Below, piece by piece: positions 1,857-15,726 of a DNA stretch of 64,000 nucleotides. Both the position numbers and the translations under genes were made by a program. A model generated the notes under the pieces. It searched no databases. It was given only the letters and a program-made list of their open reading frames with translations, and was not told the origin of the DNA. The DNA lies in the NCBI RefSeq assembly GCF_039545095.1, contig NZ_BAABRS010000003.1, positions 124,001-188,000 on the forward strand, in the 5' to 3' direction. Each line of letters begins with the position of its first letter. Within the stretch, counting starts at the first letter, position 1. The stretch comes from Fodinibius salicampi (GTDB taxonomy: Bacteria; Bacteroidota; Rhodothermia; Balneolales; Balneolaceae).

Positions 1857-1872
1857 AGTACCCCCACCCGGA
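1857..1872. repeat. attL core, 16-bp direct repeat
   Basis: AGTACCCCCACCCGGA, identical to 12181-12196. It is a copy of the tRNA-Arg 3' end left at the distal side of the insertion. The next base differs between the copies (C here, A at the right), which sets the right edge of the shared core. Confidence 0.85.
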
Positions 1873-1919
1873 CTTTATCTCTATTCTTTTTCATTCATGT
1901 ATTAGGCGTAAATAGTACT

Positions 1920-1943
1920 ATATATGCTTTAAATAGCATATAT
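1920..1943. repeat. 9-bp perfect inverted repeat inside the left end of the element
   Basis: ATATATGCT and AGCATATAT form perfect arms around a 6-base loop. It lies between attL and the integrase promoter, where an excisionase or host factor would be expected to bind. That role is an inference from position only. Confidence 0.45.
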
Positions 1944-1968
1944 GTGTGTCTTATTCATCGTTTAAATG

Positions 1969-1998
1969 TTGGTAAATTCAAAAAATGTTGTACCTTTG
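1969..1998 (+). promoter_or_regulatory. Bacteroidota-type promoter of the integrase gene
   Basis: TTG at 1969-1971, a 19-bp spacer and TACCTTTG at 1991-1998 match the Bacteroidota sigma-A pattern TTG-N19-TAnnTTTG. The -7 box overlaps repeated GTTGTACC motifs, so the integrase or a partner could repress its own promoter. Confidence 0.6.
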
Positions 1999-2026
1999 TT
2001 GTACCATTATAATTTAGGTACAACAA
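1986..2026. repeat. Candidate integrase arm-type sites, left end
   Basis: TGTTGTACC occurs at 1986-1994 and 1997-2005, and the inverted form GGTACAACA at 2017-2025. The last two are part of a perfect 10-bp inverted repeat, 1996-2005 and 2017-2026. The same motif recurs near the right end of the element (11997-12123) and I noticed no cluster elsewhere in the element. Clusters of one short motif near both att cores resemble arm sites of a lambda-type integrase. Confidence 0.55.
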
Positions 2027-2027
2027 T

Positions 2028-3266
2028 ATGGCAACAACTTATCACTTTTATTTACGCAAAGATAAAAAGAGAGAGAACGGAGAGTGTCCTATTTATTTAA
2101 GGATAACTCAAAACCGTAAATCCCGGTATGTTAGCACTGGTGTTTATGTTAAGCCCAGGTTTTGGAATCCAGAAAAAGAAGAGGTTAGAAAGAGTCACAG
2201 AAATTCTAAGAGTTTAAACAGTATCTTGGATCGGGAACAAGATAAGGCCGAAACTGTCCAGGCTGAATTAAGTAAGCATGGGAAGGATTCAGCAAAGGCT
2301 ATTCAGAAACGCTTAAAACATCAGCAAACCGGAGATTTCTTTGATTTAGCGGATGAATATTTAGAGGAGATTAAAAAATCAGGAAGTCATTATACTCATA
2401 AGAATGCCAAAGTCGCTATTAGAAAGGTAGAAGCTTTTGAAGGTTCTCGTTCTTTACCTTTAAGGCATATTGATACTGAATATTTAGAACGTTTTGAGCG
2501 GTTTTTGGAAGACGAATATGATAACCATCCCAATACGATAAGTAAGAACTTTGGGCCTATCAAAGGGATTATTCGAAAGGCATTAAAAAAACACCTCATT
2601 ACGATTAATCCCCTGGTTAATTTTGAAGGTGCGAAACGGGGTAAACCTAAACCTAAGACAAAGCTTTCTGTAAAACAGATTGAAGCAATTCAAAGTTACG
2701 ATTTTGAGGAGTTTTCTAATCTCTGGCATACCCGAAACTACTTTATGTTTTCATTTTATAGTGGTGGTATCCGGTTTGGAGATTTATGTTGCTTAAAATG
2801 GAAGGACATAAAAGGCGACCGTTTATCTTATCAGATGAACAAAAACGAAAAGGTATTTACGATTGAGCTTAATGAGTACCAGCAAGAAATATTAGACTAT
2901 TATTCTACCGATAAAAAATCGGAAGACTTTATCTTTCCAATTTTGAATAATCACAAAGATTATTCTGATCCTATATTCTTGCGAAAACGAATTAGCAGTA
3001 AAAATGCTCTTATCAATAAGTGGCTAGGAAAGATTGTTGACAAAGTAAATGAAGAGCTGGAAAAAGAAGATTCTGACATTCCAAGGCTTGATAATATTTC
3101 TTTTCACGTAGCACGTCATAGCTTTGCCCAGTATGCCGTTGAACAGGGATTAAGTATGTACGAGTTAATGCAAACACTTAGGCACTCTAAGATCAAAACT
3201 ACGCAAAAATACCTGAAAGGCTTGGATGAACAATTGGCAGATAAAGCAATGAAAAAAGTGTTCTAA
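2028..3266 (+). CDS. int: Tyrosine recombinase / integrase (Bacteroidota type)
   Basis: This 412-residue site-specific recombinase would insert and excise the surrounding element at the tRNA-Arg 3' end. The N-terminal ~90 residues match the arm-DNA-binding domain of Bacteroidota integrases (YLRKDKKRENGECPIYLRIT). A SAM-like core-binding domain spans roughly 100-210. The catalytic domain shows the first Arg in GGIRFGD (about 248), HVARH (about 359), LRHSK (about 384) and the nucleophile Tyr in TTQKYL (about 394). The length is normal and the gene looks intact. Its ATG follows directly after the repeated GTTGTACC sites, suggesting autoregulation. The next gene begins 2 bp after the stop. Confidence 0.95.
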   Translation: MATTYHFYLRKDKKRENGECPIYLRITQNRKSRYVSTGVYVKPRFWNPEKEEVRKSHRNSKSLNSILDREQDKAETVQAELSKHGKDSAKAIQKRLKHQQTGDFFDLADEYLEEIKKSGSHYTHKNAKVAIRKVEAFEGSRSLPLRHIDTEYLERFERFLEDEYDNHPNTISKNFGPIKGIIRKALKKHLITINPLVNFEGAKRGKPKPKTKLSVKQIEAIQSYDFEEFSNLWHTRNYFMFSFYSGGIRFGDLCCLKWKDIKGDRLSYQMNKNEKVFTIELNEYQQEILDYYSTDKKSEDFIFPILNNHKDYSDPIFLRKRISSKNALINKWLGKIVDKVNEELEKEDSDIPRLDNISFHVARHSFAQYAVEQGLSMYELMQTLRHSKIKTTQKYLKGLDEQLADKAMKKVF

Positions 3267-3268
3267 AA

Positions 3269-4018
3269 ATGAGTAAAGGGAAATATACTTTTGCGGATTG
3301 GAAATCCGGACAAATAGAAAAGGATTACGCCAATAAAGAAATTGAAGGGTTTAATGACCAAAACCTGTATGGGGTAGGGTATTTGCCCCAACAGTTACAT
3401 GAGCAGGGTTTTATAACTGATAAGGAATATTCTAAAATTGAAAAAGCACAGAAAGAAATTTTCGACAAGTCGGTAGAGAATGCTTATAAATCTTTTTTGA
3501 ATGAATTTTTAGAACGATTAGAAAATGCTTACAAACCTGCTGAATTTATTCAAAATAGAATAAACAGATTACAATCGGAACTTGACCGTGCCTCCAATCA
3601 TATCCTAGAACAAGTTTACGAAGGCAATTGGAGTAAAGTTGGTATAGGCCATAAAGCATATGCAATGGTAAATAATTCAGATGGAATGGGATGGACTTAT
3701 TTACATAACACAATACAAACACCTGCAGATAACACCAGGTCAGCCAATCATGTTTTTGTTAGTACAGTTAGTCTATATCAAATAGAGGAATTAGAAAAAC
3801 TTTTGAAATCTGAATATTCTAAATCCGAGAAAGATGATAGAAGAAGCTACGGACAACATCAAAAAAATAGAAAATGGATAATAGAAAAGTTTGAAGAGCA
3901 AGAATCCAAACAGCCATCTCAAAACAAAACCGCGATAGCGGTTAAAGAACTCTACAAGAAAGAATTTGGGCTTAATATAGATAAGTCAACAGTTTTGAGG
4001 TACAACGATAGAATGTAA
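3269..4018 (+). CDS. Hypothetical element protein, 249 residues
   Basis: I do not recognise this protein. It begins 2 bp after the integrase stop and is almost certainly co-transcribed. The sequence is hydrophilic and mostly helical, with a likely coiled-coil stretch near residues 60-120 and a Lys/Glu-rich linker near 190-215. The last ~30 residues (AIAVKELYKKEFGLNIDKST) resemble a small helix-turn-helix-like segment. Codon use and AT content match the rest of the element. A role linked to integration, replication or regulation is a guess from position only. Confidence 0.75.
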   Translation: MSKGKYTFADWKSGQIEKDYANKEIEGFNDQNLYGVGYLPQQLHEQGFITDKEYSKIEKAQKEIFDKSVENAYKSFLNEFLERLENAYKPAEFIQNRINRLQSELDRASNHILEQVYEGNWSKVGIGHKAYAMVNNSDGMGWTYLHNTIQTPADNTRSANHVFVSTVSLYQIEELEKLLKSEYSKSEKDDRRSYGQHQKNRKWIIEKFEEQESKQPSQNKTAIAVKELYKKEFGLNIDKSTVLRYNDRM

Positions 4019-4127
4019 TAGTTCACCTATCTACCTTTTCATAGAATCTTTTTCATTGATGAAAAAATGAAAAAGTTGCGTTCTGATTATTCTATAGGCG
4101 AAGACAAATTCAAAAGCCTAAATAGTC

Positions 4128-4403
4128 ATGAACGTTTTTATCCCTACAAAAGAAGATCTGGAAGATATTATTTCCAGAAAAGTTAAAGAGACGGTAAACG
4201 AAGTTCTTCCCGGTGCGATACGCAAAGCCACCCGGAAAGAATGGTTAACTACGGATGAAGTAATGGAAATGCTTCAATGCTCCCGTAGGCACGTCCAGTA
4301 TCTAAGGGATAGTAAGCAACTCCCATACTCTCAAAATGGCCGGACAATACGGTATCACATCCAAGATGTGGAAGCCTTTTTAAACCGCCATAAAGTAGAA
4401 TAA
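4128..4403 (+). CDS. Helix-turn-helix (excisionase/MerR-like) DNA-binding protein
   Basis: This 91-residue protein has a C-terminal helix-turn-helix of the excisionase family (helix_turn_helix_17): WLTTDEVMEMLQCSRRHVQY, then SKQLPYSQNGRTIRYHIQDV and the final helix EAFLNRH. The N-terminal ~35 residues are charged and helical. In Bacteroidota mobile elements this protein type commonly directs excision or controls element genes. Its place just downstream of the integrase gene supports that. The ATG has no strong Shine-Dalgarno, which is normal for the group. Confidence 0.85.
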   Translation: MNVFIPTKEDLEDIISRKVKETVNEVLPGAIRKATRKEWLTTDEVMEMLQCSRRHVQYLRDSKQLPYSQNGRTIRYHIQDVEAFLNRHKVE

Positions 4404-4412
4404 CATCAACTA

Positions 4413-4541
4413 ATGGGAGAACTATACGATTTTCGGGCCATGCTGGAGAGCACCCCGACCACACGGAGAAAGCCCGGGGAGAAACGATCCTTCCCGGGAT
4501 TCTCTTACTCCTTTCTCTGTGTGGATAAACTCATAGGATGA
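4413..4541 (+). CDS. Possible 42-residue small protein
   Basis: An open frame from ATG 4413 to TGA 4541 starts 9 bp after the excisionase-like gene stop. It encodes a basic peptide beginning MGELYDFRAMLESTPTTRRK. It overlaps a hairpin (4466-4504), so the sequence may be under structural rather than coding selection. No family is recognised. Confidence 0.3.
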   Translation: MGELYDFRAMLESTPTTRRKPGEKRSFPGFSYSFLCVDKLIG

Positions 4542-4681
4542 TCTCTATTACTGGCATTTGCTGTGGAAAAGGCTCTTGCTGGCGTACCGGGGAGGTCAAT
4601 CTTTATCCCCCCGGTACGCCTAAGAAGCAATGAATGGGAATAAAAAAAGGCGGACAGAGTGTTCGAAGCACCCTGTGCGCC
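4466..4681. other. Cluster of three hairpins before the HUH Rep gene: candidate replication/nicking origin
   Basis: Three inverted repeats lie in series just upstream of the Rep gene. At 4466-4504, GAGAA..CCCGGG pairs with CCCGGG..TTCTC. At 4581-4592 and 4609-4620, GGCGTACCGGGG pairs perfectly with CCCCGGTACGCC around a 16-base loop. At 4649-4681, GGCG, ACAG and GTG pair with CAC, CTGT and CGCC. HUH endonucleases recognise hairpins at their origins and often act next to their own gene, so this is a plausible double-strand origin or transfer origin. The nick site cannot be assigned from sequence. Confidence 0.45.
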
Positions 4682-4723
4682 TATCAGATTAATTAAAGCA
4701 TAACACTTTAAAACTAACCCGTA

Positions 4724-5116
4724 ATGGATAAACAAAGTTATGAACAAAGAGAACAGTACGCAAATTGGTTGTCAACCGAAAAATGGGACTATTTCTTCAC
4801 CGGAACATTCCGGTTCGAAGATATCTCTCCAAACGGCGCACGCCGGGCCGCTCAACGATTTTTTCGCGGTTTCACGACCAAAGAACTTATTGTTCTTTTC
4901 ATCGAATCGGGAAAACTCTACGGCAAAGTCCATTTGCACGGCCTGTTACGTTTCCGTTTTGATCAACGGCCAACAGCTCAAACTATTTGGAAGCGATGGT
5001 TCGATAAATATGGCCGTGCCCGAGTGGAAACGATTGAATCCCGGGAAGCGGTCTCCAACTATTGCTGTAAGTACGTAACCAAACAGATGAAGGATGAAAC
5101 CTTCATTGTGATATGA
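4724..5116 (+). CDS. HUH endonuclease, rolling-circle Rep-like
   Basis: This 130-residue protein shows the three motifs of small Rep/HUH nucleases in order: YFFTGTF (motif I, about residues 23-29), HLHGLL with the metal-binding HxH (His70, His72), and NYCCKY with the likely nicking Tyr near residue 112 and a following Lys. It would cut one strand at a hairpin origin and hold the 5' end covalently. The stop overlaps the next ATG (ATGA at 5113-5116), so the two genes are translationally coupled. It could drive rolling-circle copying of the excised element or, less likely, act as a mobilisation relaxase. Confidence 0.8.
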   Translation: MDKQSYEQREQYANWLSTEKWDYFFTGTFRFEDISPNGARRAAQRFFRGFTTKELIVLFIESGKLYGKVHLHGLLRFRFDQRPTAQTIWKRWFDKYGRARVETIESREAVSNYCCKYVTKQMKDETFIVI

Positions 5117-5349
5117 TTACGGAAAGTGATCGGTTGGCACTGGATTATCGCGATCTGGGATTATGGAAAGAAGACATTCCTACCAGGTGTGGTGGCGTTG
5201 AGAATAACAGATGTTCAAAATGTGGAATTGCATTCAAAAATAATGTTAGAATTACCGTGTGTATATCAAATGAAGCCGGCAATGAACATTATGACTACCA
5301 CAAAGAATGCATCACTAGTATGTTAAATCGAAACGAATCAAAAATTTAA
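5113..5349 (+). CDS. Small Cys-rich protein, possible zinc-binding
   Basis: A 78-residue protein whose ATG overlaps the Rep stop by 4 bp. It carries CSKCG followed by a lone Cys and a YHKEC tail, a spacing that could form a zinc ribbon or treble clef. I recognise no named family. Coupling to the Rep gene suggests a shared role in replication or copy control, which is inference. Confidence 0.6.
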   Translation: MITESDRLALDYRDLGLWKEDIPTRCGGVENNRCSKCGIAFKNNVRITVCISNEAGNEHYDYHKECITSMLNRNESKI

Positions 5350-5513
5350 CACTTAAAATGCCATTTAAAGGCTATAAAAGGATATGAGGACCCAAAAGCC
5401 GTGCCGTTCCGAAGCCCGGCAAACCCAAAATATTTGGGTATAATTACCCGGCTGAAATGGGTTCTCAGCCTTTATGACCGAGAAAATGAAAAAATTACTA
5501 AAAATTTAATGCT

Positions 5514-5759
5514 ATGGATGAAGAAAGAGAACCCCGAAACACGGAAAAGGAGAAGAAATTAACGTGCCCAGAGTGTGGAAAAGCGTTCAAGGACATGAGA
5601 GGATTAACTTCTCATGCCCGGCATATACATGAGATCGAAAAAGAGAAATTAATTCAGCTTATAGAGCAAGAAGAAGACAATGTGAATATGGGCTGGAAAA
5701 TAGTAGGTGGTATCGGTGCATTCTTAGCTACCATTATCACCCTTGGCAATTCCCGTTAA
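5514..5759 (+). CDS. C2H2 zinc-finger protein with C-terminal membrane segment
   Basis: This 81-residue protein has one classical C2H2 finger, CPECGKAFKDMRGLTSHARH, with Cys18, Cys21, His34 and His37 or His39. A charged helix follows, then a hydrophobic C-terminal segment (about residues 61-78, VGGIGAFLATIITLG) that could sit in the membrane. C2H2 fingers of this kind are uncommon in bacteria and often occur in mobile elements. The gene stands alone between the Rep module and the mazG-like gene. A degenerate second copy of the finger lies at 8013-8189. Its target is unknown. Confidence 0.7.
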   Translation: MDEEREPRNTEKEKKLTCPECGKAFKDMRGLTSHARHIHEIEKEKLIQLIEQEEDNVNMGWKIVGGIGAFLATIITLGNSR

Positions 5760-5873
5760 TTCAAGTTGCCATTGGCTTTACGTGGAGATAAAACTATTTC
5801 CAAAAATGTCCTTTATATTTATTAAGATTATAATCGTAAAAGTTAATGGGAAAAATATACCAGAATTCCTTTC

Positions 5874-6221
5874 ATGGATAGATTAGAAAAGATTATTAAG
5901 AATATTCTGGAGTTTAGAGAGGAAAGAGATTGGGAACAATTTCACAATCCGAAAGATTTGGCAATCTCCTTGAATTTAGAAGCCTCAGAATTACTTGAGC
6001 ACTTTCAATGGAAATCAGACGAAGAAATTGAAGAGTATATAGCTGAAAATAAAGATTCAATTAGTCAAGAATTGGCTGACATTCTTTATTGGGTACTTTT
6101 GATAAGTCATGATCTGGATATTGATATTGAGTCCGCTGTTCAAGAGAAATTAAAGTTAAATGCTAAGAAGTATCCTGTTGAAAAAGCAAAAGGTAAACAC
6201 ACAAAATATACGGATCTTTAA
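5874..6221 (+). CDS. MazG-like nucleotide pyrophosphohydrolase
   Basis: This 115-residue protein matches the single-domain MazG/dCTPase-like (RS21-C6) family of all-alpha NTP pyrophosphohydrolases. The metal-binding helices are visible: LEASELLEHFQWK, then SQELADILYWVLLISHDLDI, with the family's ExxE...ExxD acidic pattern. It would cleave (d)NTPs to NMP and pyrophosphate. The EVE-like/HNH nuclease gene starts 2 bp later and the HEPN gene follows, so the three form one transcript. In mobile elements MazG-like enzymes can alter nucleotide or alarmone pools during phage infection. Here that is inference. Confidence 0.85.
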   Translation: MDRLEKIIKNILEFREERDWEQFHNPKDLAISLNLEASELLEHFQWKSDEEIEEYIAENKDSISQELADILYWVLLISHDLDIDIESAVQEKLKLNAKKYPVEKAKGKHTKYTDL

Positions 6222-6223
6222 AT

Positions 6224-7207
6224 ATGTCTAACATCTGGAGAATGACCGGGCCTCCCGAACATTGGATTACAACACTAATTAGAAATGCTTGGGGATTAAC
6301 GGAAACAAACAAAAATATTTGGGATAAACTATCCCCAGGTGACCTTGTATATTTCCATTCAACTGCAAGTTCTTCTGTCGTTAGTAGTGCTAAATCATCT
6401 ATAGTAGGATTTGGAATAATAGATAATTCTATCCGCACTAAAAGTGAACTCTGGTGGTTAGAGGAACATAAAACAGGGAAAAATGAATGGAAATATGTTG
6501 TGCCATTTAAATCAATAGAATGGTTCTCAAATGTTGATTCCATCAATCGTAACAGATTGATCCATGAAAAATCAGTAAATGAAATAAGACGAGAAATTAA
6601 AACTATTACTCAAGATGGTATTTCTATTTCAAAATTAAGTGAAATGGCAAAATCCATTGATCCAGAGTATCCCAACTTTCCAGTTAATGGTTCTGCTTCT
6701 GGATTTGAAGATATTTATGAGGACCTAATTCTGCAGTCGGCAGAATTCGATAAAGATAAATATGAGGATCTTATTGAAACAGATTATTCTGAGTTAATTG
6801 ACGATAGTTTATCAGATAATCTAAATAAGTTGATGGAAGAAGCCCGTAATTATACGCACAAGGACAGATACGATGAAAAAAATAATTCCCGTTCAAAAAC
6901 AAGACGAGAAAATGAAAAACAAAAAAGGCGTATCGCCAAAATCGAAGATTATACTTGCCAAGTTTGTGGTTTCAGATGTGAATATCAAAACTTAAATGGT
7001 CAAAAATGCTACATAATTGATGTTGACCATATTATTCCTAAATCAGATGGTGGAACTGAAGAAATTGACAACCTCTGGGTACTTTGCCCTAATTGTCATA
7101 GAAAGAAAACCCGCGGATTAATTTCTATTGACGTGGAAAATAAACAAGTGCTTGAGAAGGGAAGTGAAATTGAAATAACCGATAACCATTTATTTCAAAA
7201 TGGATAA
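6224..7207 (+). CDS. EVE/PUA-like domain fused to HNH endonuclease, putative modification-dependent restriction enzyme
   Basis: A 327-residue two-part protein. The first ~120 residues look like an EVE/PUA-type reader (WRMTGPPEHW, then KLSPGDLVYFHS and SIVGFGII), a fold that binds modified cytosine or other bases. The C-terminal part is an HNH nuclease: CQVCGF near 245, VDHIIPKSDGGTEEIDNLWV with the catalytic His near 267, and CPNCHRKKT near 288, giving the paired CxxC zinc sites. EVE-HNH proteins are known type IV, modification-dependent restriction enzymes. The gene starts 2 bp after mazG-like and overlaps the HEPN gene by 8 bp. The EVE assignment is weaker than the HNH one. Confidence 0.78.
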   Translation: MSNIWRMTGPPEHWITTLIRNAWGLTETNKNIWDKLSPGDLVYFHSTASSSVVSSAKSSIVGFGIIDNSIRTKSELWWLEEHKTGKNEWKYVVPFKSIEWFSNVDSINRNRLIHEKSVNEIRREIKTITQDGISISKLSEMAKSIDPEYPNFPVNGSASGFEDIYEDLILQSAEFDKDKYEDLIETDYSELIDDSLSDNLNKLMEEARNYTHKDRYDEKNNSRSKTRRENEKQKRRIAKIEDYTCQVCGFRCEYQNLNGQKCYIIDVDHIIPKSDGGTEEIDNLWVLCPNCHRKKTRGLISIDVENKQVLEKGSEIEITDNHLFQNG

Positions 7208-7964
7208 CAAGAATCGATGGATTTTAAAAACAGTCAAAGAAATAAACTCTTTCTTTTCCGATGAAAATATCGCAAGGCTTAAAAAAGCAACTGGCGAAGA
7301 GAAAGAAGAACTATTTGAAGAGTTTACCGATAAGATAAAGGCTGTTGAGAGACACACCGTAAATAATCCAGGTGCACTCATCTACTTAAAGCCCAGTGAG
7401 GACCGAGAAACTATTGAAGGAATATTTCAAACATTTGGTAAGAACCTTGATCAAAGGGAAGCCTTTGATGCACTAGTTGGTGGACATAATCTTGATTTTT
7501 TAATGAATACACTCTACGCTTACATCAACAGAGCTTCTCAACTTACTCCAACATTTATTTCAACCCGATACCATAGTAACGATTTCAGGAAGTATTTCAA
7601 TGAAGCTATGGAGGCCTGGACTCACGGGCTAGATAATGCAGCGCTCATCATGATCTATTCGGTACTTGAAGAAGCAGTAAGAAACTCATTATGCCAATCT
7701 GTACCAGAATTGTGTCAAAAACTTTATATCTCCAATGGCGATGAGGTCAGGTCAAATAATGACTATCCAATGAGCAAGCTTATTGAAATAGCTAGAGATA
7801 GAGATGTGATTTCCTACGAGACAGAAAGGAAATTAAAAAATATAGGCAAGGCTAGAAATTCAGCAGTCCACAATCTCGACAATTATGACTCTACAAACGG
7901 TAAAGAAGTATATCAGATTCTTTTAGATGCTAGAGATATTATTGAAGACGTTTACAAACTTTAG
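7200..7964 (+). CDS. HEPN-domain protein, possible toxin or defence effector
   Basis: A 254-residue protein that overlaps the EVE-like/HNH gene by 8 bp, so the two are coupled. The C-terminal half looks like a HEPN (DUF4145/abortive-infection type) domain: a helix with EEAVRNSL and then the HEPN signature RNSAVH, an Rx4H motif at Arg219-His224. HEPN domains with this motif are commonly metal-independent RNases in toxin and anti-phage systems. The N-terminal half is helical and unrecognised. It may be an effector released when the nuclease senses modified DNA. That link is inference from coupling. Confidence 0.7.
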   Translation: MDNKNRWILKTVKEINSFFSDENIARLKKATGEEKEELFEEFTDKIKAVERHTVNNPGALIYLKPSEDRETIEGIFQTFGKNLDQREAFDALVGGHNLDFLMNTLYAYINRASQLTPTFISTRYHSNDFRKYFNEAMEAWTHGLDNAALIMIYSVLEEAVRNSLCQSVPELCQKLYISNGDEVRSNNDYPMSKLIEIARDRDVISYETERKLKNIGKARNSAVHNLDNYDSTNGKEVYQILLDARDIIEDVYKL

Positions 7965-8012
7965 CTCATTATTTCTCTCATTATCTGCAAACGGTAAATT
8001 ATAGAAACTGAA

Positions 8013-8189
8013 TTGGAAAAATTATCGTGTCAAAGTGTGAAAGGGTTTTCGGACATGAGGGAATTGACTTCTCATGCTAGGCACTTTCATAGTCTTGCAA
8101 AGAAGGAATTCCATAAAAAATCAGCCATAAATGTAGTCTGTTTTGAGTCCTTGAGATCTTATCTCTTTCAAAAGATAGATGTCATCTAG
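8013..8189 (+). pseudogene. Degenerate copy of the C2H2 zinc-finger gene
   Basis: The frame from TTG 8013 to TAG 8189 reads LSCQSVKGFSDMRELTSHARHFH, clearly related to the finger at 5514-5759. Local indels have removed the second zinc-binding Cys, and no ATG or good start is visible. The C-terminal membrane segment is not preserved. It looks like a remnant left by duplication or recombination within the element. Confidence 0.6.
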
Positions 8190-8230
8190 TATTGGGCTTG
8201 TTTATAGTCCCATAACTCACTGTGAGATGA

Positions 8231-9250
8231 TTATTTTTTATTAAATAGGTAAAACAAAAGTCCAGATCCACTACCAACCATAATAAGGCCAAGTACTAAT
8301 AGCTTCCAACTCATATTCTCCAAAAATGGTTTTGTATCAGGTAAAGAAGCATTAGCAATTATTAAACCAATTAAGATCAACGCACTTAAAAGGCCAAACA
8401 CCCAGGGTTTCCAAAATGACTTTTTAATTCTCCAATTTAAATTAACACTGAAGTGTTTATTATTATTATTTGCATTTTCTTGTAGTGTTGTAATAGCTGA
8501 AGAAGACGAAACATCTAAGGAATTAGTCTTTAAATCTAGAATCATCGTTTTTCTTATAGCATCAATGATAAATCCATTTGAAGAATGAATTTTCATGTCA
8601 TCTGACGAATATGATACATCTAATTTAGAGCCAGACTTCGGATCATAACACGAAAGGTCAAGTTGATAGTTCTTACCATCTTGTAATTGATAATATGATG
8701 AACGATTGTTTGATGAATATTTTGGTTCTTTGATTTTATCGCCATCCCTAACACTATTTATGTGGAAAAAAAGTGAATCATTAAACTCTTTTTCAATATC
8801 CTTAACTCTATTGATCCATGATTTTTCGGGAACATCTTTGAGAGTTAAAGCTGATACCATTTTGTAGATAGGTAAATCTTTTTCATCCGTTTTGGGATGA
8901 TAGTCCTTATCGGTAAAATCTTTTAGTTTGAGATAAAAATTTACAATTTCAACGTTTTCATCATAATATATCTCTTTAATTTCAGCCTTTCTTATAGGGT
9001 GAAATTCAATATTTCTTAAACGCTCTTCTTTTGTAAGATTTGAATCATTACCGCTTACAAAAAATATAATACTGTCCCTATCAATTAATTCATCCCCGTT
9101 GATTTTTGATAGAATATCTTGGTCAAGATGTTCTTTTCTATATCTGAATTCTATAATATAATTTTTGGGTAGGCATAAAACTCTGAAGATATCACCTTTA
9201 TACAGATCCCTATAATCAGAGCTAAAGAGTGCTATTACTTTTTTACTCAA
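8231..9250 (-). CDS. Membrane-anchored protein of unknown function
   Basis: A 339-residue protein on the reverse strand inside the element. Roughly the first 270 residues are soluble, rich in Asp, Lys and Ser, and I recognise no family. The C-terminus has two hydrophobic helices (about 278-298 and 315-334) and ends in a short basic tail. A cytosolic sensor-like domain followed by two C-terminal helices is a layout shared by some membrane-disrupting abortive-infection effectors, but no diagnostic motif supports that. It is transcribed divergently from the GNAT-like gene at 9312, with a 61-bp AT-rich gap serving both. Confidence 0.7.
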   Translation of the reverse strand: MSKKVIALFSSDYRDLYKGDIFRVLCLPKNYIIEFRYRKEHLDQDILSKINGDELIDRDSIIFFVSGNDSNLTKEERLRNIEFHPIRKAEIKEIYYDENVEIVNFYLKLKDFTDKDYHPKTDEKDLPIYKMVSALTLKDVPEKSWINRVKDIEKEFNDSLFFHINSVRDGDKIKEPKYSSNNRSSYYQLQDGKNYQLDLSCYDPKSGSKLDVSYSSDDMKIHSSNGFIIDAIRKTMILDLKTNSLDVSSSSAITTLQENANNNNKHFSVNLNWRIKKSFWKPWVFGLLSALILIGLIIANASLPDTKPFLENMSWKLLVLGLIMVGSGSGLLFYLFNKK

Positions 9251-9311
9251 AACTGTAATAGATTATGTTTAGATTTATAAAACCAAGTTATAAAAAAAAA
9301 CCTACAATTAA

Positions 9312-9890
9312 ATGCTTTTTGAGTCTTACAGGTTTGAGAAAACAGAAATCAATGAGAAGAGATCAATAAAATTACCTTCAGATGGACTAAAGGCCCGACA
9401 TCTCGAATTTGATGAATGCAATAAGATTTATGCTGTAAATATTAATAAAAGATGGCATTCTAGATTGCCGAATTCGCAAGAAAAACCCTGGCAATTCGCG
9501 TTTAAAGCGCATTTTAGAGGGGTTACATTCGCTATTGCTTTGTGGAATAATCCTAGCGCTCGGACATTGCCTAATAACTGGTTAGAGCTTAGGAGATTAG
9601 CTTGTAGCAATGATGCTCCTAAGAATACTCCCAGTCGTTTTATGGCCCACATGGTTAATTTTTTCAGAGATAATTGTCCGGAAAAAGAAAAATGTATTTC
9701 ATATCAAGATACTTCGGTTCATGAAGGTACTATATATAAAGCTGCTGGTTGGGAAGTAGGTCATATTACGAAGGCTAGAAAGCGAAAAAGGGATTATAAA
9801 AAACCTGGCACCGATAGGCTTTATCGAAAAGATAGTAATGGTAAAGATGTGGCTTCAGCTAGGAAGCTGAGATGGGAAAAAGAATTATAG
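9312..9890 (+). CDS. GNAT-fold protein resembling phage Mom / XF1762 family
   Basis: This 192-residue protein resembles phage proteins related to Mu Mom and the XF1762 N-acetyltransferase family. WLELRRLACSNDAPKNTPSR, MAHMVNFFRD and SYQDTSVHEGTIYKAAGWEV match the family's 'WLEL.RLa..n..SR', second-helix and 'YxxAGW' positions. Mom converts adenine to a carbamoylmethyl form in phage Mu DNA to evade restriction. By analogy this protein might modify element DNA, or be an ordinary acetyltransferase. The basic C-terminus (KARKRKRDYKK) would suit nucleic-acid binding. It lies between two putative restriction genes, which makes a protective role attractive but unproven. Confidence 0.6.
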   Translation: MLFESYRFEKTEINEKRSIKLPSDGLKARHLEFDECNKIYAVNINKRWHSRLPNSQEKPWQFAFKAHFRGVTFAIALWNNPSARTLPNNWLELRRLACSNDAPKNTPSRFMAHMVNFFRDNCPEKEKCISYQDTSVHEGTIYKAAGWEVGHITKARKRKRDYKKPGTDRLYRKDSNGKDVASARKLRWEKEL

Positions 9891-10028
9891 TTTTGTTACT
9901 ACCTTACAAATGAATAAGATTATTTTGGCCAAGTCTACTCCAAAATCATAAAGCACAACTGATAGGGAAATCAAAATTTGAGACGACTATTTTAGTAAAT
10001 TAATTATAACAATATCATATCATAAAAA

Positions 10029-11984
10029 ATGAAAAATCCTAACTGGACAAGAGAGGAAATCATCCTCGCATTAGATTTATATTTCCAATTAGAATCAAAT
10101 GAAATAAGTAAGGACAACGATAGGATAATTGAGTTATCAAAGCTCCTTAATAGTCTAGATATACATGATGAGGATGACATTAGTAATCCCGATACATTTA
10201 GAAATCCTAATGGAGTGAATTTAAAGCTGAGTAACTTTTTGCCCTCTGATCCAGACTATGATGGTAAGGGGATGCCAGGAGGATCTAAGTTAGATAGGAA
10301 GATATTTGAGGAATTTTATGACAAAAGAAAAGAATTGAGAGAAATAGCAGATTCAATACGAGAAAGTATTTCTAGTGAGATAGATTTTTTTCAAGTAGAG
10401 GATTTGAAAATATTAAAAAAGTGGGCAGGTGAGGATTACAGGTCTGATGATGAGTCTCATAAAAAAGCATCAGAGAATTTAAAAGAGGGGGTTTGGAAAA
10501 AAACAAAGCATTGGTGTAATCTTGTATCTAATATTACAGGACTTGAAAGTGTTGTTAGGATGAATTGGCATAAACAGGCTGGACCGGGTAAATTTAAATT
10601 CAGACCATATTCATGGGGAAGATTATTTGAAAGTGAAGCTTTTACTGATGAAATATTTTTTGTTGTAGGTGCACATGTTCAGGAAGGAGAGTACCTGCAT
10701 ATTAGCCTAGATAGGCAACATGAATCACCTCAAAATCTTACTAAAGGTCAGTTAAAAAAAGCAAATGAATTAATTACTGATAAACATGGTCGATACCGAT
10801 ACACTAAGAAAATACCGATAACGAAGTTACCTGAGTATGATTGGGATAAATTAGTAAAGGTTAGTAAAGATTTTATTGGGCAAAATTTAGAAACTTATGA
10901 GAATATCCTTAAAGAGGTAAAAAACCCGAATAGCCGAAATAAATTTACTCGAATTTGTTGGAATACAAATGGATGGACTTCACCTTCTGGAACAGAAGGT
11001 AAAAGTGATTCTGAAGAGTCATTCGAAGGATTAGTCGGCTTAGGATTCGAGGAATGGTTATTTAACGAAGGGTTAAATTATAATGGCTTTCAATATGGTT
11101 TCATCCAAGGTGTGAAGGATAGTTCAAAGTCTAAAATTGTAGATTTGGATTTATATACCTTAAAGAGGACTAAAGAGGGGACTGATGCATTTTGGGTTGC
11201 AACAATTAATAATTTAGAAGTAATAAGCGAGTCTAAAATAAATCAAATTCAGAATGAACTTGATTTTATAGATAAACTCAAAAAGAAGAAAAAAGAAATT
11301 ATTGATAGCAAAAATATTGGAGAGAGAATTAATTCATTTCTTTACGACCGATATATAAATGTACGTTTTAAGTTAGAAGAAGTAGAGTTTCCTCCCGATG
11401 GTGAGCTTATTAAAGTTAATTTGGATACTAGTCGATATGGCAGATATAAGCTCTATAATGGTTCAATATGGGATATGCTTGGAATAAAAAAACCTGTAGA
11501 AGACGAGAGTGAATATGGATTAGGACAAAAATCTTTAAATCGTTCTTCAGGAGATAGTACTACTGTTAACCTTTCTGCGAATTCTTATCAGAGGAAAAAT
11601 ACGCATAACAAGATTAGTGAAAAGTTAGAACAACATCTTAACAATATTAAAAGTGATAAAGAGGAAGTTGTACCTGAAAGTGTGAGGAGAGATGGGAGGG
11701 CAATTGACATGGTATATATTAAGGGAAAAGATGCTATTCTTTATGAAATAAAAACCTATCCTGATATTAGAAATGTAATTAGGAAAGCTCTTGGTCAGAT
11801 TCTTGAATATGCTTATTGGAATGATCCATATCCAGATTATAATTTAAAATTAGTTATTGTAGGTACACAAACGCCTGACTATATAAGTAAAAATTATTTG
11901 AAGTATTTAAGAAACGAATTTAGTCTTCCTGTTTATTATAGTCAATTTGATTTAGACGAAGGAATATTAAATAAGGAGGTATAA
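10029..11984 (+). CDS. Multidomain restriction-like endonuclease with C-terminal PD-(D/E)XK domain
   Basis: A 651-residue protein. The N-terminal ~110 residues (WTREEIILALDLYF, then FRNPNGVNLKLSNF) match the N-terminal domain seen in many bacterial restriction proteins such as McrA-like HNH enzymes. The middle contains GFEEWLFNEGLNYNGFQYGF near 337, possibly a PUA-like reader. The C-terminal ~110 residues carry a PD-(D/E)XK nuclease core: the Asp in RAIDMVY, then ILYEIKTY with Glu and Lys (about 556-575) and ALGQILEYAYW. It is probably a type IV-like or single-subunit restriction enzyme, sensing modified or foreign DNA. No methyltransferase is next to it, which favours modification-dependent cutting. 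Confidence 0.65.
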   Translation: MKNPNWTREEIILALDLYFQLESNEISKDNDRIIELSKLLNSLDIHDEDDISNPDTFRNPNGVNLKLSNFLPSDPDYDGKGMPGGSKLDRKIFEEFYDKRKELREIADSIRESISSEIDFFQVEDLKILKKWAGEDYRSDDESHKKASENLKEGVWKKTKHWCNLVSNITGLESVVRMNWHKQAGPGKFKFRPYSWGRLFESEAFTDEIFFVVGAHVQEGEYLHISLDRQHESPQNLTKGQLKKANELITDKHGRYRYTKKIPITKLPEYDWDKLVKVSKDFIGQNLETYENILKEVKNPNSRNKFTRICWNTNGWTSPSGTEGKSDSEESFEGLVGLGFEEWLFNEGLNYNGFQYGFIQGVKDSSKSKIVDLDLYTLKRTKEGTDAFWVATINNLEVISESKINQIQNELDFIDKLKKKKKEIIDSKNIGERINSFLYDRYINVRFKLEEVEFPPDGELIKVNLDTSRYGRYKLYNGSIWDMLGIKKPVEDESEYGLGQKSLNRSSGDSTTVNLSANSYQRKNTHNKISEKLEQHLNNIKSDKEEVVPESVRRDGRAIDMVYIKGKDAILYEIKTYPDIRNVIRKALGQILEYAYWNDPYPDYNLKLVIVGTQTPDYISKNYLKYLRNEFSLPVYYSQFDLDEGILNKEV

Positions 11985-11996
11985 TAAACTATTTTG

Positions 11997-12123
11997 TTTG
12001 TACCTATATTTGTACCTATAAAATAAAACCCTTGCAAGCCAAAGACTTACAAGGGTTTTATGTGCCCTGGACTAAAATTAATAAGTGGTACAAAAAGGTA
12101 TTTTGTTTTACCTATGTTGTACC
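11997..12123. repeat. Candidate integrase arm-type sites, right end
   Basis: TTTGTACC occurs at 11997-12004 and 12009-12016, GGTACAAA (inverted) at 12087-12094 and TGTTGTACC at 12115-12123. They match the motif cluster at 1986-2026 and lie within about 190 bp of attR, as arm sites of a lambda-type integrase would. Confidence 0.5.
12024..12060. terminator. Hairpin terminator after the last element gene
   Basis: TAAAACCCTTG (12024-12034) pairs perfectly with CAAGGGTTTTA (12050-12060). It lies 40 bp after the PD-(D/E)XK gene stop, and the T-rich 3' arm suits rho-independent termination. Confidence 0.55.
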
Positions 12124-12134
12124 AAATATAAATA

Positions 12135-12177
12135 AAAAAGCCCTAAGTTATTAGTAAAAAGTAACTTAGGGCTTTTT
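12135..12177. terminator. Strong bidirectional hairpin terminator next to attR
   Basis: AAAAAGCCCTAAGTTA (12135-12150) and TAACTTAGGGCTTTTT (12162-12177) are perfect 16-bp arms around an 11-base loop, with A and T tracts on the two sides. It would stop transcription from the element and from the tRNA. Confidence 0.75.
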
Positions 12178-12180
12178 ATG

Positions 12181-12196
12181 AGTACCCCCACCCGGA
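12181..12196. repeat. attR core, 16-bp direct repeat
   Basis: AGTACCCCCACCCGGA, the right copy of the att core. It covers the discriminator, the 3' acceptor strand and part of the T-stem of the reverse-strand tRNA-Arg gene. Confidence 0.85.
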
Positions 12197-12255
12197 ATCG
12201 AACCAGGATCTAAGGTTTAGGAAACCTCCGTTCTCTCCAATTGAACTATGGGGGC
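12183..12255 (-). tRNA. tRNA-Arg (anticodon CCU)
   Basis: A 73-base cloverleaf folds on the reverse strand. The acceptor GCCCCCA pairs with TGGGGGT (one G-U pair). The anticodon stem GAGGT/ACCTT closes the loop TTCCTAA, giving anticodon CCU, which reads AGG. The T-arm is CCTGG-TTCGATT-CCGGG. The discriminator is A and CCA is not encoded. Its 3' end is the integration site of the neighbouring element and the gene remains intact. Confidence 0.92.
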
Positions 12256-12496: not shown

Positions 12497-13537
12497 ATGA
12501 AATCATTCATTACGCTTATCTCCCTGTTTTTATTTATCGGGTGTGGAAACCAATCGGAACAAACACAACAACAGGAGCAGGAACAAGCTGTCCAGGATAC
12601 AACCACTTATAAAAAGGTCGGCAGCATTGAACAAATGGAACCGGAACTCAGTCAGCTGCTGGATATCGACGCCCAATTAGAGGTACTCGGCGAAGGCTAT
12701 GAGTGGTCCGAAGGCCCGGTGTGGGTGGAAGAGCACCAGTTTCTGCTGTTCTCGGATATTCCTAATAACGTCATTCATAAGTGGGAGGAAGGAGAAGGCG
12801 TTTCTGAGTATCTGAAACCGGCCGGCTACACCGGTGAAGAAGAACGGGGCGGCGAACTTGGCTCCAACGGATTGATTATCGGTCAGGATGGCTCTCTTAT
12901 CCTTGCCCAGCACGGAGACCGGCGCATCGCACGCATGGATGCCCCGTTAACGGATCCCCAACCTAACTTTGTTACGCTCGCTGACAGCTTTAACAATAAA
13001 AAGCTCAATACACCCAACGACCTGGTGCAGCACAGCAAAGGTAGCATCTATTTCACCGATCCGCCTTACGGTTTTGAACAGCGGGGCGACGATCCCGCCC
13101 AGGAGCTGGATTTCCAGGGGGTCTATCGCCTCACGCCCTCAGGCGAAGTGGAATTGGTTACCGATGAGCTGTATCGTCCCAATGGCGTGGCCCTCTCCCC
13201 CGATGAGCAGACGCTCTATGTAGGCAATTCCGGTTCCGAGGAGCCTATATGGATGGCCTTTGACGTGGCCGAAGACGGCAGCACCTCGAATGGACGCGTT
13301 TTCCTGGATCCCAAAGAAGTAGTGAATGAGCCCGGCGGTCCCGATGGCATGGATGTGGATACTGAAGGAAATATCTATTCCACCGGACCCGGCGGCGTTT
13401 GGGTGATTACTCCCGAGGCCAAAGTATTGGGGATCATCAGAACGGGCAGAGCCACCTCCAACTGCACCATTGGCAATAACGGTAAGATGCTGTATATCAC
13501 AGCCGATGACTACCTGCTTAGACTGCCTCTCAAGTAA
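12497..13537 (+). CDS. SMP-30/gluconolactonase-family lipoprotein
   Basis: A 346-residue six-bladed beta-propeller enzyme of the SMP-30/gluconolactonase/LRE-like family, likely hydrolysing a sugar lactone. A signal peptide ends in a lipobox (FIGC, Cys16), followed by a Gln/Glu-rich linker, so the protein is probably a periplasmic or outer-membrane lipoprotein. Family landmarks include EGPVW (the metal-ligand Glu), LNTPNDLV (Asn), YRPNGVALSPDE and GPDGMDVDTEGNIY (Asp). The length is normal. It stands alone, between the tRNA and a long non-coding stretch. Confidence 0.88.
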   Translation: MKSFITLISLFLFIGCGNQSEQTQQQEQEQAVQDTTTYKKVGSIEQMEPELSQLLDIDAQLEVLGEGYEWSEGPVWVEEHQFLLFSDIPNNVIHKWEEGEGVSEYLKPAGYTGEEERGGELGSNGLIIGQDGSLILAQHGDRRIARMDAPLTDPQPNFVTLADSFNNKKLNTPNDLVQHSKGSIYFTDPPYGFEQRGDDPAQELDFQGVYRLTPSGEVELVTDELYRPNGVALSPDEQTLYVGNSGSEEPIWMAFDVAEDGSTSNGRVFLDPKEVVNEPGGPDGMDVDTEGNIYSTGPGGVWVITPEAKVLGIIRTGRATSNCTIGNNGKMLYITADDYLLRLPLK

Positions 13538-13693
13538 ATAATAAATGTTTCTTGAAAGCCCGCAGGAAACGGTTAGCAAGAGACAAATAAAAGCCGTTGA
13601 TCGACTGTATTCTTATCAACAAGGATTGCCCTGCGAGAGTGCGGGACCGGGTCTGTAATGCCACGGAATAAACATAACAAACCACTGAAATGT

Positions 13694-13960
13694 GCTCTTA
13701 AAAGGATAAGATGCTTCCCATTACTATGGGAGGAAGAATCCCATATATATCGGAAGGTAACGCCCATATATATGGGAAGGAGTCTCCTATATATATGGGA
13801 AAGTGATTCCCATATATATGACATTTTGATTGCCATTACTATTGCAAACAGATTGTAAAGCTATTACAAAGTGCCTGTCATTAGTATCACAAGATGTTTG
13901 TAATACTTTAGCAGAGAGATTGTCCTTACTATCGCATGGCCTCTGTCCTTACGAGGAAAA
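13694..13960. repeat. 23-bp periodic array of imperfect palindromes
   Basis: About 11-12 short dyads have centres spaced exactly 23 bp apart: 13723.5, 13746.5, 13769.5, 13792.5, 13815.5, 13838.5 and onward to about 13953. The clearest units are CCCATTACTATGGG, CCCATATATATGGG and CCTATATATATGGG. Later ones (GTCATTAGTATCAC, CCTTACTATCGCAT) drift but keep the register. A 23-bp period is not a multiple of three, which argues against coding. The function is unknown. Confidence 0.65.
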
Positions 13961-14009
13961 TTTATTTTTTCCCTCTGACGTTTTATCGACCATATCGCTT
14001 ATCCGGTCT

Positions 14010-14157
14010 GCAGCCAGCCCCTCGTCAGACAGAAATGGTCCGAGGTGGGCTCTGTCGCTTTAAAAGAATAAATTCTGGCCCTGAAAGGGCACGACGTTGG
14101 GTAGTGAAGTCAAGAAACGGGGTCTGGCCGGGATTCCACGGGGCCAGCAGTTTTTTT
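14010..14157 (+). ncRNA. Possible structured RNA ending in a terminator-like hairpin
   Basis: The segment contains a tight hairpin GCCCT-GAA-AGGGC (14078-14090) and a GC-rich hairpin CTGGCC/GGCCAG (14124-14129 with 14142-14147), followed by T7 at 14151-14157. That order suits a short RNA ending at a rho-independent terminator. I recognise no known RNA family. It could also be a decayed repeat. Confidence 0.3.
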
Positions 14158-14300
14158 CGTCTATTTTTTGCTGACAAAAAATGGAACAAGACTAGTGAGT
14201 GATGAGCAGGATTTCCAAAACCCCTGGCAGAATAAATGACAGGAAATAAAATGCTTATTTCCCTTTATAAATTAAAAACAGATTCACCACCAAACTTTAG

Positions 14301-14347
14301 GTTAACACCGTTAACTATTATATTCATTTACAGATTAATAAATCTGT
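14301..14347. promoter_or_regulatory. Candidate operator dyads upstream of fadI
   Basis: GTTAAC-ACC-GTTAAC (14301-14315) and ACAGATT-AATA-AATCTGT (14330-14347) are two dyads 44-90 bp before the fadI start. Fatty-acid degradation operons are usually under a TetR-, GntR- or PsrA-type repressor, so one of these may be its site. No regulator gene is adjacent. Confidence 0.35.
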
Positions 14348-14390
14348 TATATTATTTTCAACACTCATTTTTCATCCATACTCAACCACT

Positions 14391-15686
14391 ATGGCGAACC
14401 AACAACCCGAAGCCGTTATTGTGGACGGCGCCCGCATCCCCTTTCAGCGATCAGGCACCGGATATAAAAAACTGATGTCCTACGATCTTGGACGCATGGC
14501 AATAGAGGGACTCATCGGTCGTGCCAACATTTCCCCAGAAATGATTGACCGGGTCATTATGGGGACCGTCATTCAGGATGTCAATACCAGTAACGTAGCA
14601 CGAGAATCAGCACTAGGCGCCGGCCTTCCCAACCGTATTCCGGCCCATACCGTTACCCAGGCCTGCATTTCATCCAACCAGGCGACCAGCTCCGCCGTCG
14701 ATCTAGTTCGATCGGGACAAGCCAAAGTGGTACTGGCCGGAGGTACAGAAACCATGTCGGACATCCCTATCCGCTTCCGCAGGAAATTCCGTCAAAAGCT
14801 GCTGGATGCCCGCAAATACAAATCACTCAGCGACTGGCTCTCCTTCTTCAAAGGACTGCGTCCCTCCCACTTGCTTCCGGAAATCCCGGAAATTGCCGAA
14901 TTCTCCACCGGGGAAACCATGGGGGAAAGCTGTGATCGCATGGCCGCTCACTTCGGTATTAGCCGGAAGGCACAGGATGAATACTCCCTGCGCTCGCACC
15001 AGCTCGCCGCCAAAGCCACTAATGAGGGACTCCTTGACCAAGAACTGCTGCCCGCTGCGGTACCGCCTGATTTTGAGGTAATCCAACAGGACAACGGTTT
15101 CCGGGAAGATACCTCCATGGAGAAACTCCAAAAACTAAGCCCTGCATTTATCAAACCCCACGGTACCATCACGGCAGGGAACTCCTCTTTCTTAACCGAT
15201 GGCGCCTCGGCCTCGCTCATTATGGAAGCCGAAACAGCCCGTAAGCTCGGATGTACTCCCAAAGCATATCTTCGCGAATACACTTTTGTAGCCCAGGATC
15301 CAAAAGATGAGCTATTACTAGGACCTGCCTACGCTACACCACAGGTACTCGATCGGATGGGACTTGCCCTCTCCGATATCGATATATTTGAATTCCACGA
15401 AGCTTTTGCGGGACAAATATTGACTGTTCTCAAGGCCCTCAATTCGGATAAATTTGCCCGGGAGAAGCTGGACAAGGATAAAAAGGTAGGCGATATCCCG
15501 ATGGATAAATTCAACTGTTGGGGCGGCTCTCTCTCACTGGGCCACCCATTCGGGGCCACCGGAACACGCCTGGTAACAACCGCTGCCAACCGGCTCCACC
15601 ATGAAGACGGACAGCTTGCTTTAGTAGCAGCCTGTGCAGCCGGGGGACAAGGTCATGCTATGATCCTTGAACGGTATGAAGGATAG
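14391..15686 (+). CDS. fadI: Acetyl-CoA acyltransferase (3-ketoacyl-CoA thiolase)
   Basis: A 431-residue thiolase that cleaves 3-ketoacyl-CoA with CoA in the last step of fatty acid beta-oxidation. The nucleophile is Cys92 in QACISSNQA. The catalytic His lies in EFHEAFAGQ (about 336). The C-terminus shows [10 protein letters not shown] and CAAGGQGHA, which carries the second Cys. It is the beta-subunit partner of the multifunctional protein encoded 40 bp downstream. The length and the insertion near residues 130-170 fit the FadI/HADHB group rather than FadA, hence the symbol. Confidence 0.93.
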
Positions 15687-15726
15687 ATAAATAATCACAA
15701 CCGTATTTACACAGAGCAAAACCATT

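Follow-up and report, generated by a model that had tools for sequence, protein, structure and literature searches.

The window, which is the whole 64,000-nucleotide stretch of Fodinibius salicampi DNA that we analyzed, contains a 10.3-kb element (1857-12196) whose ends are formed by a 16-bp direct repeat (AGTACCCCCACCCGGA). The left copy (attL, 1857-1872) exactly matched the right copy (attR, 12181-12196), which covers the 3′ end of a tRNA-Arg(cct) gene on the minus strand (12182-12255). As shown by these att repeats, the element is integrated at tRNA-Arg; the repeats and a tyrosine integrase gene bear out the original prediction of an integrated element. An empty site could not be proven, since the tRNA and the right-flank gene were syntenic in G015 and G016 but the left flank had no match. 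Outside the element, beyond the tRNA, a series of palindromic CCCATATATATGGG-type repeats was observed at approximately 13700-13830.

On the plus strand, the element begins with the gene for the 412-aa tyrosine integrase (2028-3266; Pfam Arm-DNA-bind_5, Phage_int_SAM_5, and Phage_integrase), followed after 2 nt by ORF2 (3269-4018; 249 aa), which has no assigned function and is 24-29% identical to the gene at the same position in three related elements (L009, L010, and L011). Downstream are the gene for a 91-aa excisionase-type helix-turn-helix (HTH) protein (4128-4403; HTH_17; TIGR01764 excise, 29.4 against a cut-off of 28.8), an array of hairpins, and the rep gene for a small Rep of 130 aa (4724-5116). 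A gene for a 78-aa Cys/His protein (5113-5349) overlaps rep (ATGA); it also directly follows rep in L010 and L011 and is interrupted by a stop in L009. The next gene (5514-5759), also found in L009 and L010, encodes an 81-aa C2H2 zinc-finger protein with a hydrophobic C-terminus, and the remainder of the element is occupied by cargo genes. The element had been predicted to lack capsid and conjugation genes; consistent with this, no capsid, terminase, relaxase, Zot, or primase families and no filamentous morphogenesis gene were found among the Pfam matches of the 12 element ORFs scanned.

The small Rep and the hairpins upstream of its gene

The description of the rep product as a small HUH nuclease with HLHG and NYCCKY motifs in the original prediction held. 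The translated ORF contains the motifs FFTGTF, VHLHG, and NYCCKYVTK, and matched Pfam PF23343 (REP_ORF2-G2P) at 28.6 bits, slightly above the cut-off (27.8), covering profile positions 2-99 of 99. FFTGTF, VHLHG, and YCCKYVTK were invariant among the small Reps, and both His residues of HLHG and both Tyr residues (Y113-CCK-Y117) were invariant in four of four Reps. The match to PHROG rolling-circle initiators was weak (E 0.03), and the only two matches of a sequence profile to the PDB (E 0.78 and 0.95) were taken as noise. Pfam matched the nuclease only, with no helicase domain in Rep.

Structural prediction (ColabFold/AF2 with four homologues) yielded a medium-confidence model (pLDDT 66, pTM 0.63) with an HUH-like fold. 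Its top VIA match among solved chains was ORF119 of rudivirus SIRV1 (2x3g; Z 9.8, 103 aligned residues, rmsd 2.6). Below 2x3g, the transposase of Helitron (7lcc; Z 8.2) and the Rep domains of circovirus, nanovirus, and geminivirus were interspersed with ribosomal protein S6, which has the same general arrangement and scored nearly as well (up to Z 8.7). In BFVD, 114 predicted viral proteins matched the model at E <= 0.001, including several named as microvirus replication initiators (E ~1e-5). Based on the Pfam profile, the motifs, and the predicted fold, we assign the 130-aa ORF, with medium confidence, as an HUH-type Rep. The NG86 dN/dS of rep was 0.16-0.34 in all six of the pairs compared, and by this measure the gene is under purifying selection.

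Upstream of rep, the original prediction had placed three inverted repeats in a candidate origin starting at 4466. These repeats are real and their stems covary, but the array (4433-4682) comprises four hairpins, not three, and a start at 4466 cuts into the second hairpin and misses the first. On the plus strand, the array consists of HP0 (4433-4458), HP1 with a bipartite stem (4459-4524), HP2 (4581-4620), and HP3 (4648-4682). The perfect 12-bp arms predicted for one repeat are the outer arms of HP2 (4581-4592 and 4609-4620). Folded as single-stranded DNA, the array had a z of -6.8, and none of 200 shuffles folded as well.

Covariation was assessed in four sequences only, namely those of the window, L009, L010, and L011 (L012, which does not align there, was omitted). 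Across these loci, 97.7% of the stem cells were paired, and 10 of 56 pairs were altered on both sides (5/22 in HP1, 1/12 in HP2, and 4/13 in HP3), whereas shuffles averaged 3.3 and none of 500 reached 10. When the partners were slid by 1 to 3 columns, pairing fell to 35-61%. HP0 gives no covariation support, because both the hairpin and its surrounding sequence (TTTTCGGGCnnTGCTGGAGAGCAnCCCGACCACA) are invariant in the four loci; HP0 and its surroundings appear to be the best candidates for the recognition or nick site of Rep. The HP2 loop (4593-4608) reads CAATCTTTATCC in the window and CTATCCTTGTCC in L009, L010, and L011, and this deviation possibly affects function.

When 92 genomes of the family were searched with covariance models of both halves of the array, the four intact rep loci were the only ones with strong matches. 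We conclude that the array and rep move as a pair, and the pairing put forward in the original prediction is retained in the relatives L009, L010, and L011. Given this confinement of strong matches, we rejected hairpins without Rep, which would have represented helper-dependent copies. Of the weaker matches, some were partial ones to the opposite strand of these hairpins and the rest were scattered; the one inspected, which was the best outside the rep loci (G071, E 2.8e-4), was judged to be an intergenic hairpin.

The array is likely the start site of rolling-circle replication, for which it is our candidate. Alternatively, the hairpins might act as RNA, regulating rep expression as a structured leader instead of serving as a DNA origin. 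They lie between the HTH gene and rep in the direction of both genes and also fold as RNA (z -6.3), and the excess on the plus strand of G-T pairs (10 cells) over A-C mismatches (2 cells) fits a plus-strand structure of either RNA or DNA. No Rfam match was found for the array, however, and in our judgement an array of four distinct hairpins, the first of them invariant, looks more like binding and nick sites than a riboregulator. We consider the leader reading unlikely; the two roles could coexist.

Intact copies, relatives, and replication modules

Four intact small-Rep elements (those of the window, L009, L010, and L011) and one relic (L012, in G019) were found. Clear relatives of the small Rep (E below 1e-30) occurred in 4 of 128 genomes of the order, with none further in a draw of 394 genomes of the phylum. 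The order of int, ORF2 (starting 0-2 nt after int), HTH, hairpins, rep, and cargo was the same in all four intact copies. Each of them is bounded by att repeats of 16-21 bp, measuring 16 bp in the window, 19 bp in L009 (tRNA-Leu), 21 bp in L010 (tRNA-Leu), and 16 bp in L011 (tRNA-Met); no att repeat was found for the relic L012. The att search left out L051 and L056, where no tRNA was found, and L057, and the L010b row was dropped as an artefact with a tRNA inside the left search range.

Two of the copies, those of the window and L009, share one genome, where they occupy tRNA-Arg and tRNA-Leu, respectively. Their integrases are 98% identical and their Reps 95% identical, yet their tRNA sites differ; their att cores share AGTACCC and CCGGA. 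The tRNA-specific tyrosine integrase of the original prediction is thus an integrase found at tRNA genes, but in nearly identical form at two different ones. The two copies are homologous from att through int, and from HTH past rep, and a transposon-like unit of rep and hairpins was rejected on these grounds.

An improbable reading is that the element is stranded or decaying and that rep and the hairpins are disused remnants. A decayed relative is known, as the relic in G019 retains a fragment from the 3′ part of rep, containing a single in-frame stop, and has no hairpin match (a tRNA-Met lies in the same fetched stretch), and the HP2 loop of the window departs from those of the other three copies. 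Against decay, int, HTH, and rep of the window are all open, the dN/dS of rep is in the range given above, the stems are conserved, the att repeats are exact, and two copies reside at different tRNAs.

G081, G082, and G030 contained remotely Rep-like sequences (E 2e-5 to 8e-4), which we did not count as family members; by reading, those in G081 and G082 are without one His of HxH, and that in G030 has three stops. Two 140-aa proteins remotely resemble the small Rep (L013, 8745-9167, and L014; E 3e-4 and 8e-4), each followed by a gene for a 162-163-aa protein. They carry YVHG where HxH is expected and no clear Tyr motif, and are possibly an inactivated, repurposed Rep. A scan of a genome-contig collection returned a single locus, L015. 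Five scans of viral contigs found no relatives, and neither the small Rep in phage and plasmid collections nor the L058-type big Rep (described below) in the phage collection was detected, so these searches gave no sign of particles or free circles.

Relatives of the window integrase (E <= 1e-60) were present in 29 of the 92 family genomes, and fourteen of the corresponding loci (twelve, then two more) were inspected. Several start with int-ORF2-HTH and then diverge. In L054, this start is followed by AAA_25 and a BT4734-like protein (Pfam), a module of AAA/primase type, and L053, L055, and L056 resemble L054 by eye. L059 and L061 carry Phage_capsid after the same start, and L061 also carries Terminase_4 (Pfam). 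In the genome of the window itself, L058 (G000:C3:34000-49500, reversed 4455-5339) encodes a different HUH Rep of 294 aa (PF23343, 67 bits). The L058 rep directly follows the HTH gene and leaves no space for a hairpin array between them, so its origin must lie elsewhere. Relatives of this big Rep also follow int-ORF2-HTH in L106 and L107, with a tRNA in each fetched stretch, and stop-containing fragments of such a Rep occur in G075.

In an integrase tree of 18 rows, the four small-Rep elements clustered (99/96), and L058 clustered with the capsid-bearing L061 (98/96). As the small-Rep and L058 integrases group apart, HUH modules probably entered the int-ORF2-HTH backbone more than once, and the tree suggests that the replication module was swapped more than once, bearing in mind that an integrase tree need not equal an element tree and that five forks are open. 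With three HUH-Rep elements in the genome of the window (the window element, L009, and L058) and these probable module swaps, the family can be used to test how minimal defence islands spread when they encode no transfer genes.

Cargo and possible composite structure of the window element

The cargo of the window element comprises genes for a MazG-like pyrophosphohydrolase (5874-6221; PF12643), an HNH endonuclease (6224-7207; PF01844, with a weak PADLOC mREase_IV match), a HEPN/HepT-like protein (7200-7964; PF01934, E=4e-4, weak and below cut-off), a 339-aa protein on the minus strand for which no family was found (8231-9250), a Mom-like DNA modification protein (9312-9890; PF25680 above cut-off; phrog_1384), and a 651-aa protein whose N-terminus weakly matched a PADLOC HNH-type model (10029-11984); all except the 339-aa protein are encoded on the plus strand. 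The assignment of this cargo to defence is inferred, because no PADLOC model identified a known defence system there.

The other copies carry known defence families between rep and the attachment site, in three of three intact elements and in the relic: L009 has HEC-01A/B, L010 the HTH and RT of a type VI retron, L011 genes for type III modification and restriction, and the relic L012 a split pair resembling Dsr1. The cargo thus varies while int-HTH-hairpins-rep persists. With known families in these four relatives and defence-like genes in the window, the cassette appears to serve defence. L009 additionally encodes a 1224-aa protein between the HEC-01 genes and the tRNA (13157-16831), with many similar repeats and a weak nSTAND3/AAA match, which is a candidate defence protein.

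The arrangement of the window cargo may contain traces of recombination. The MazG-HNH-HEPN block is bracketed by two copies of the C2H2 gene, the second of which, located after the HEPN gene (8020-8083, plus strand; 76% match to L009 10782-10848), is a degenerate copy of part of it; these flanking copies are maybe the route of cassette insertion. Further downstream, 31 nt (8193-8223) are identical to sequence that closely follows rep in L058, and the segment at 11990-12073 (plus strand) is a copy of the right end of the big-Rep element, including a 3′-end fragment of tRNA-Leu (88% over 84 nt with L058). The block 8193-12073 may therefore have been acquired by recombination from the tail of a big-Rep element. 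Judged from these matches, the window element resembles a composite built from two HUH-Rep elements.

Propagation and relation to known systems

The PICMI elements of Vibrionaceae comprise int, a contiguous or overlapping gene, alpA, a primase gene, and a defence hot spot before the attachment site; they reportedly replicate by rolling circle and are packaged as concatemers, and in PICMI115 the gene contiguous to int is needed for excision (PMC10803314). The window element resembles PICMI in its integrase, adjoining gene, AlpA/excisionase-type HTH, replication gene, and defence genes, and in having no capsid-remodelling genes. ORF2 may be the positional analogue of PICMI iolg/icg. PICMI, in contrast, has a primase where the window element has an HUH Rep and no primase family in 12 ORFs, and integrates beside fis, whereas the window element is in tRNA-Arg and its relatives are in other tRNAs. 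A helper phage has been demonstrated for PICMI, whereas a helper for the window element is proposed.

In view of the PICMI-like gene order, with the HUH Rep and the array in the position of the primase, we propose excision, rolling-circle replication, and helper-dependent transfer. We hold with roughly even confidence that the window contains an integrative PICMI-like, satellite-like Balneolaceae element, which excises, is copied by rolling circle from the hairpins, and moves with a helper. The integrase and the HTH excisionase, perhaps with ORF2, would excise the element at the 16-bp repeats. Rep would then nick one strand within the array (4433-4682) and start rolling-circle replication, and a host helicase would be recruited, because Rep has no helicase of its own; Pf phage uses the host helicase UvrD for rolling-circle replication (PMC4863604). 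Circles or concatemers would be carried to new cells by a helper, likeliest a tailed phage as for PICMI, and would integrate into a tRNA gene of the new cell. The genes between rep and the tRNA would constitute an exchangeable defence-type cassette benefiting the host.

The satellite-like character suggested by the original prediction is favored by capsid-bearing elements with the same int-ORF2-HTH start, one of them with a small terminase, but no helper was found in the carriers: neither Phage_capsid nor Terminase_6N was matched in any of six carrier genomes, including three with the bigger Rep. Also speaking against this reading, no packaging gene was found in the element (12 ORFs, Pfam), and the small Rep is narrowly distributed (4 of 128 genomes of the order). 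The missing resident helper is not decisive, because some hitchers occur in genomes that lack any possible helper (PMC11389934).

PICI elements (PMC6092414) and cfPICI elements likewise place int, an HTH regulator, and a replication module in one direction, followed by accessory genes, and the likeness extends through kin to L059 and L061, the related Balneolaceae elements with capsid and, in L061, small terminase genes. The PICI origin lies 3′ of rep and contains iterons (PMC6092414), whereas the window hairpins lie 5′ of rep. By Pfam, primase, terS, and capsid families are absent from the 12 ORFs of the window element. PICI and cfPICI depend on a phage for induction and packaging, and terS or capsid genes occur in many of them.

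Elements that combine an integrase with an HUH Rep are already known, and among phages, Pf integrates at a tRNA gene and encodes both an integrase and an initiator (PMC4863604). Among the titles and abstract openings that we covered, which included few subscription papers, we recognized no earlier description of the present family. The window element joins three features that are usually described apart, namely a satellite-type int/HTH backbone, putative rolling-circle replication by an HUH Rep from a compact array of hairpins, and defence-type cassettes that can be exchanged.

A serious rival, though on balance somewhat unlikely, is an integrated rolling-circle plasmid that is not a satellite, in which Rep and the hairpins maintain an excised circle and spread occurs by transformation, vesicles, or chance transduction. 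It is serious since HUH-Rep elements without virion genes, integrated site-specifically, are common and include a Rep cluster found mainly in Bacteroidetes (PMC6668415); the absence of a packaging gene (12 ORFs, Pfam) and of a helper in the carriers agrees with it. Like the window element, the pCRESS groups and Bacteroidetes Rep cluster treated there integrate site-specifically, have att direct repeats, and lack virion genes, but pCRESS Reps carry a helicase domain, whereas the 130-aa window Rep is a nuclease only. The int-ORF2-HTH order common to capsid- or small-terminase-bearing elements, and a gene order and cargo position fitting PICMI, argue against a plasmid, as does a plasmid collection without any free plasmid bearing the small Rep.

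HUH chemistry is also compatible with a relaxase role. The element could then be an integrative mobilizable element whose HUH protein doubles as relaxase and whose array holds an oriT, transferred by a co-resident conjugative element. RCR-type initiators are putative relaxases in many streptococcal IMEs (PMC5704250), but Pfam relaxases are absent from the 12 element ORFs, and we regard mobilization in this manner as quite improbable.

The satellite-like reading that we prefer involves a tailed phage as the likeliest helper; a filamentous phage was also considered. In M13, the intergenic region holds the packaging signal and the minus and plus origins. The window element could analogously be a natural integrating phagemid, in which the hairpins, upstream of a gene-II-type Rep, correspond to such an intergenic region. 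Its single strand would be packaged by a helper phage, filamentous or another with ssDNA, and swappable defence cassettes would thereby spread among Balneolaceae tRNA genes. The Pfam family of Rep (ORF2/G2P), the hairpin cluster immediately 5′ of rep, and the coding for its own replication with no coat genes found (12 ORFs, Pfam) fit this scenario, and Pf phage unites an integrase, a tRNA-Gly site, and its own RCR initiator (PMC4863604). Pf shares with the window element its own integrase, tRNA integration, and its own rolling-circle initiator; Pf, however, is a complete phage, whereas the window element has no filamentous morphogenesis gene in the scanned ORFs. The phagemid reading is highly improbable given that matches to the Zot family were weak and confined to two of the 92 family genomes, neither of them a carrier, with none in the genome of the window, and that no viral-contig relative was found. 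RS1 and TLC, satellites of Vibrio filamentous phages, have their own replication initiator and no coat genes and rely on host XerCD. RS1 is named in PMC11389934. The window element resembles RS1 and TLC in having its own replication initiator without coat genes, and differs from them in encoding its integrase and carrying defence-type cargo.
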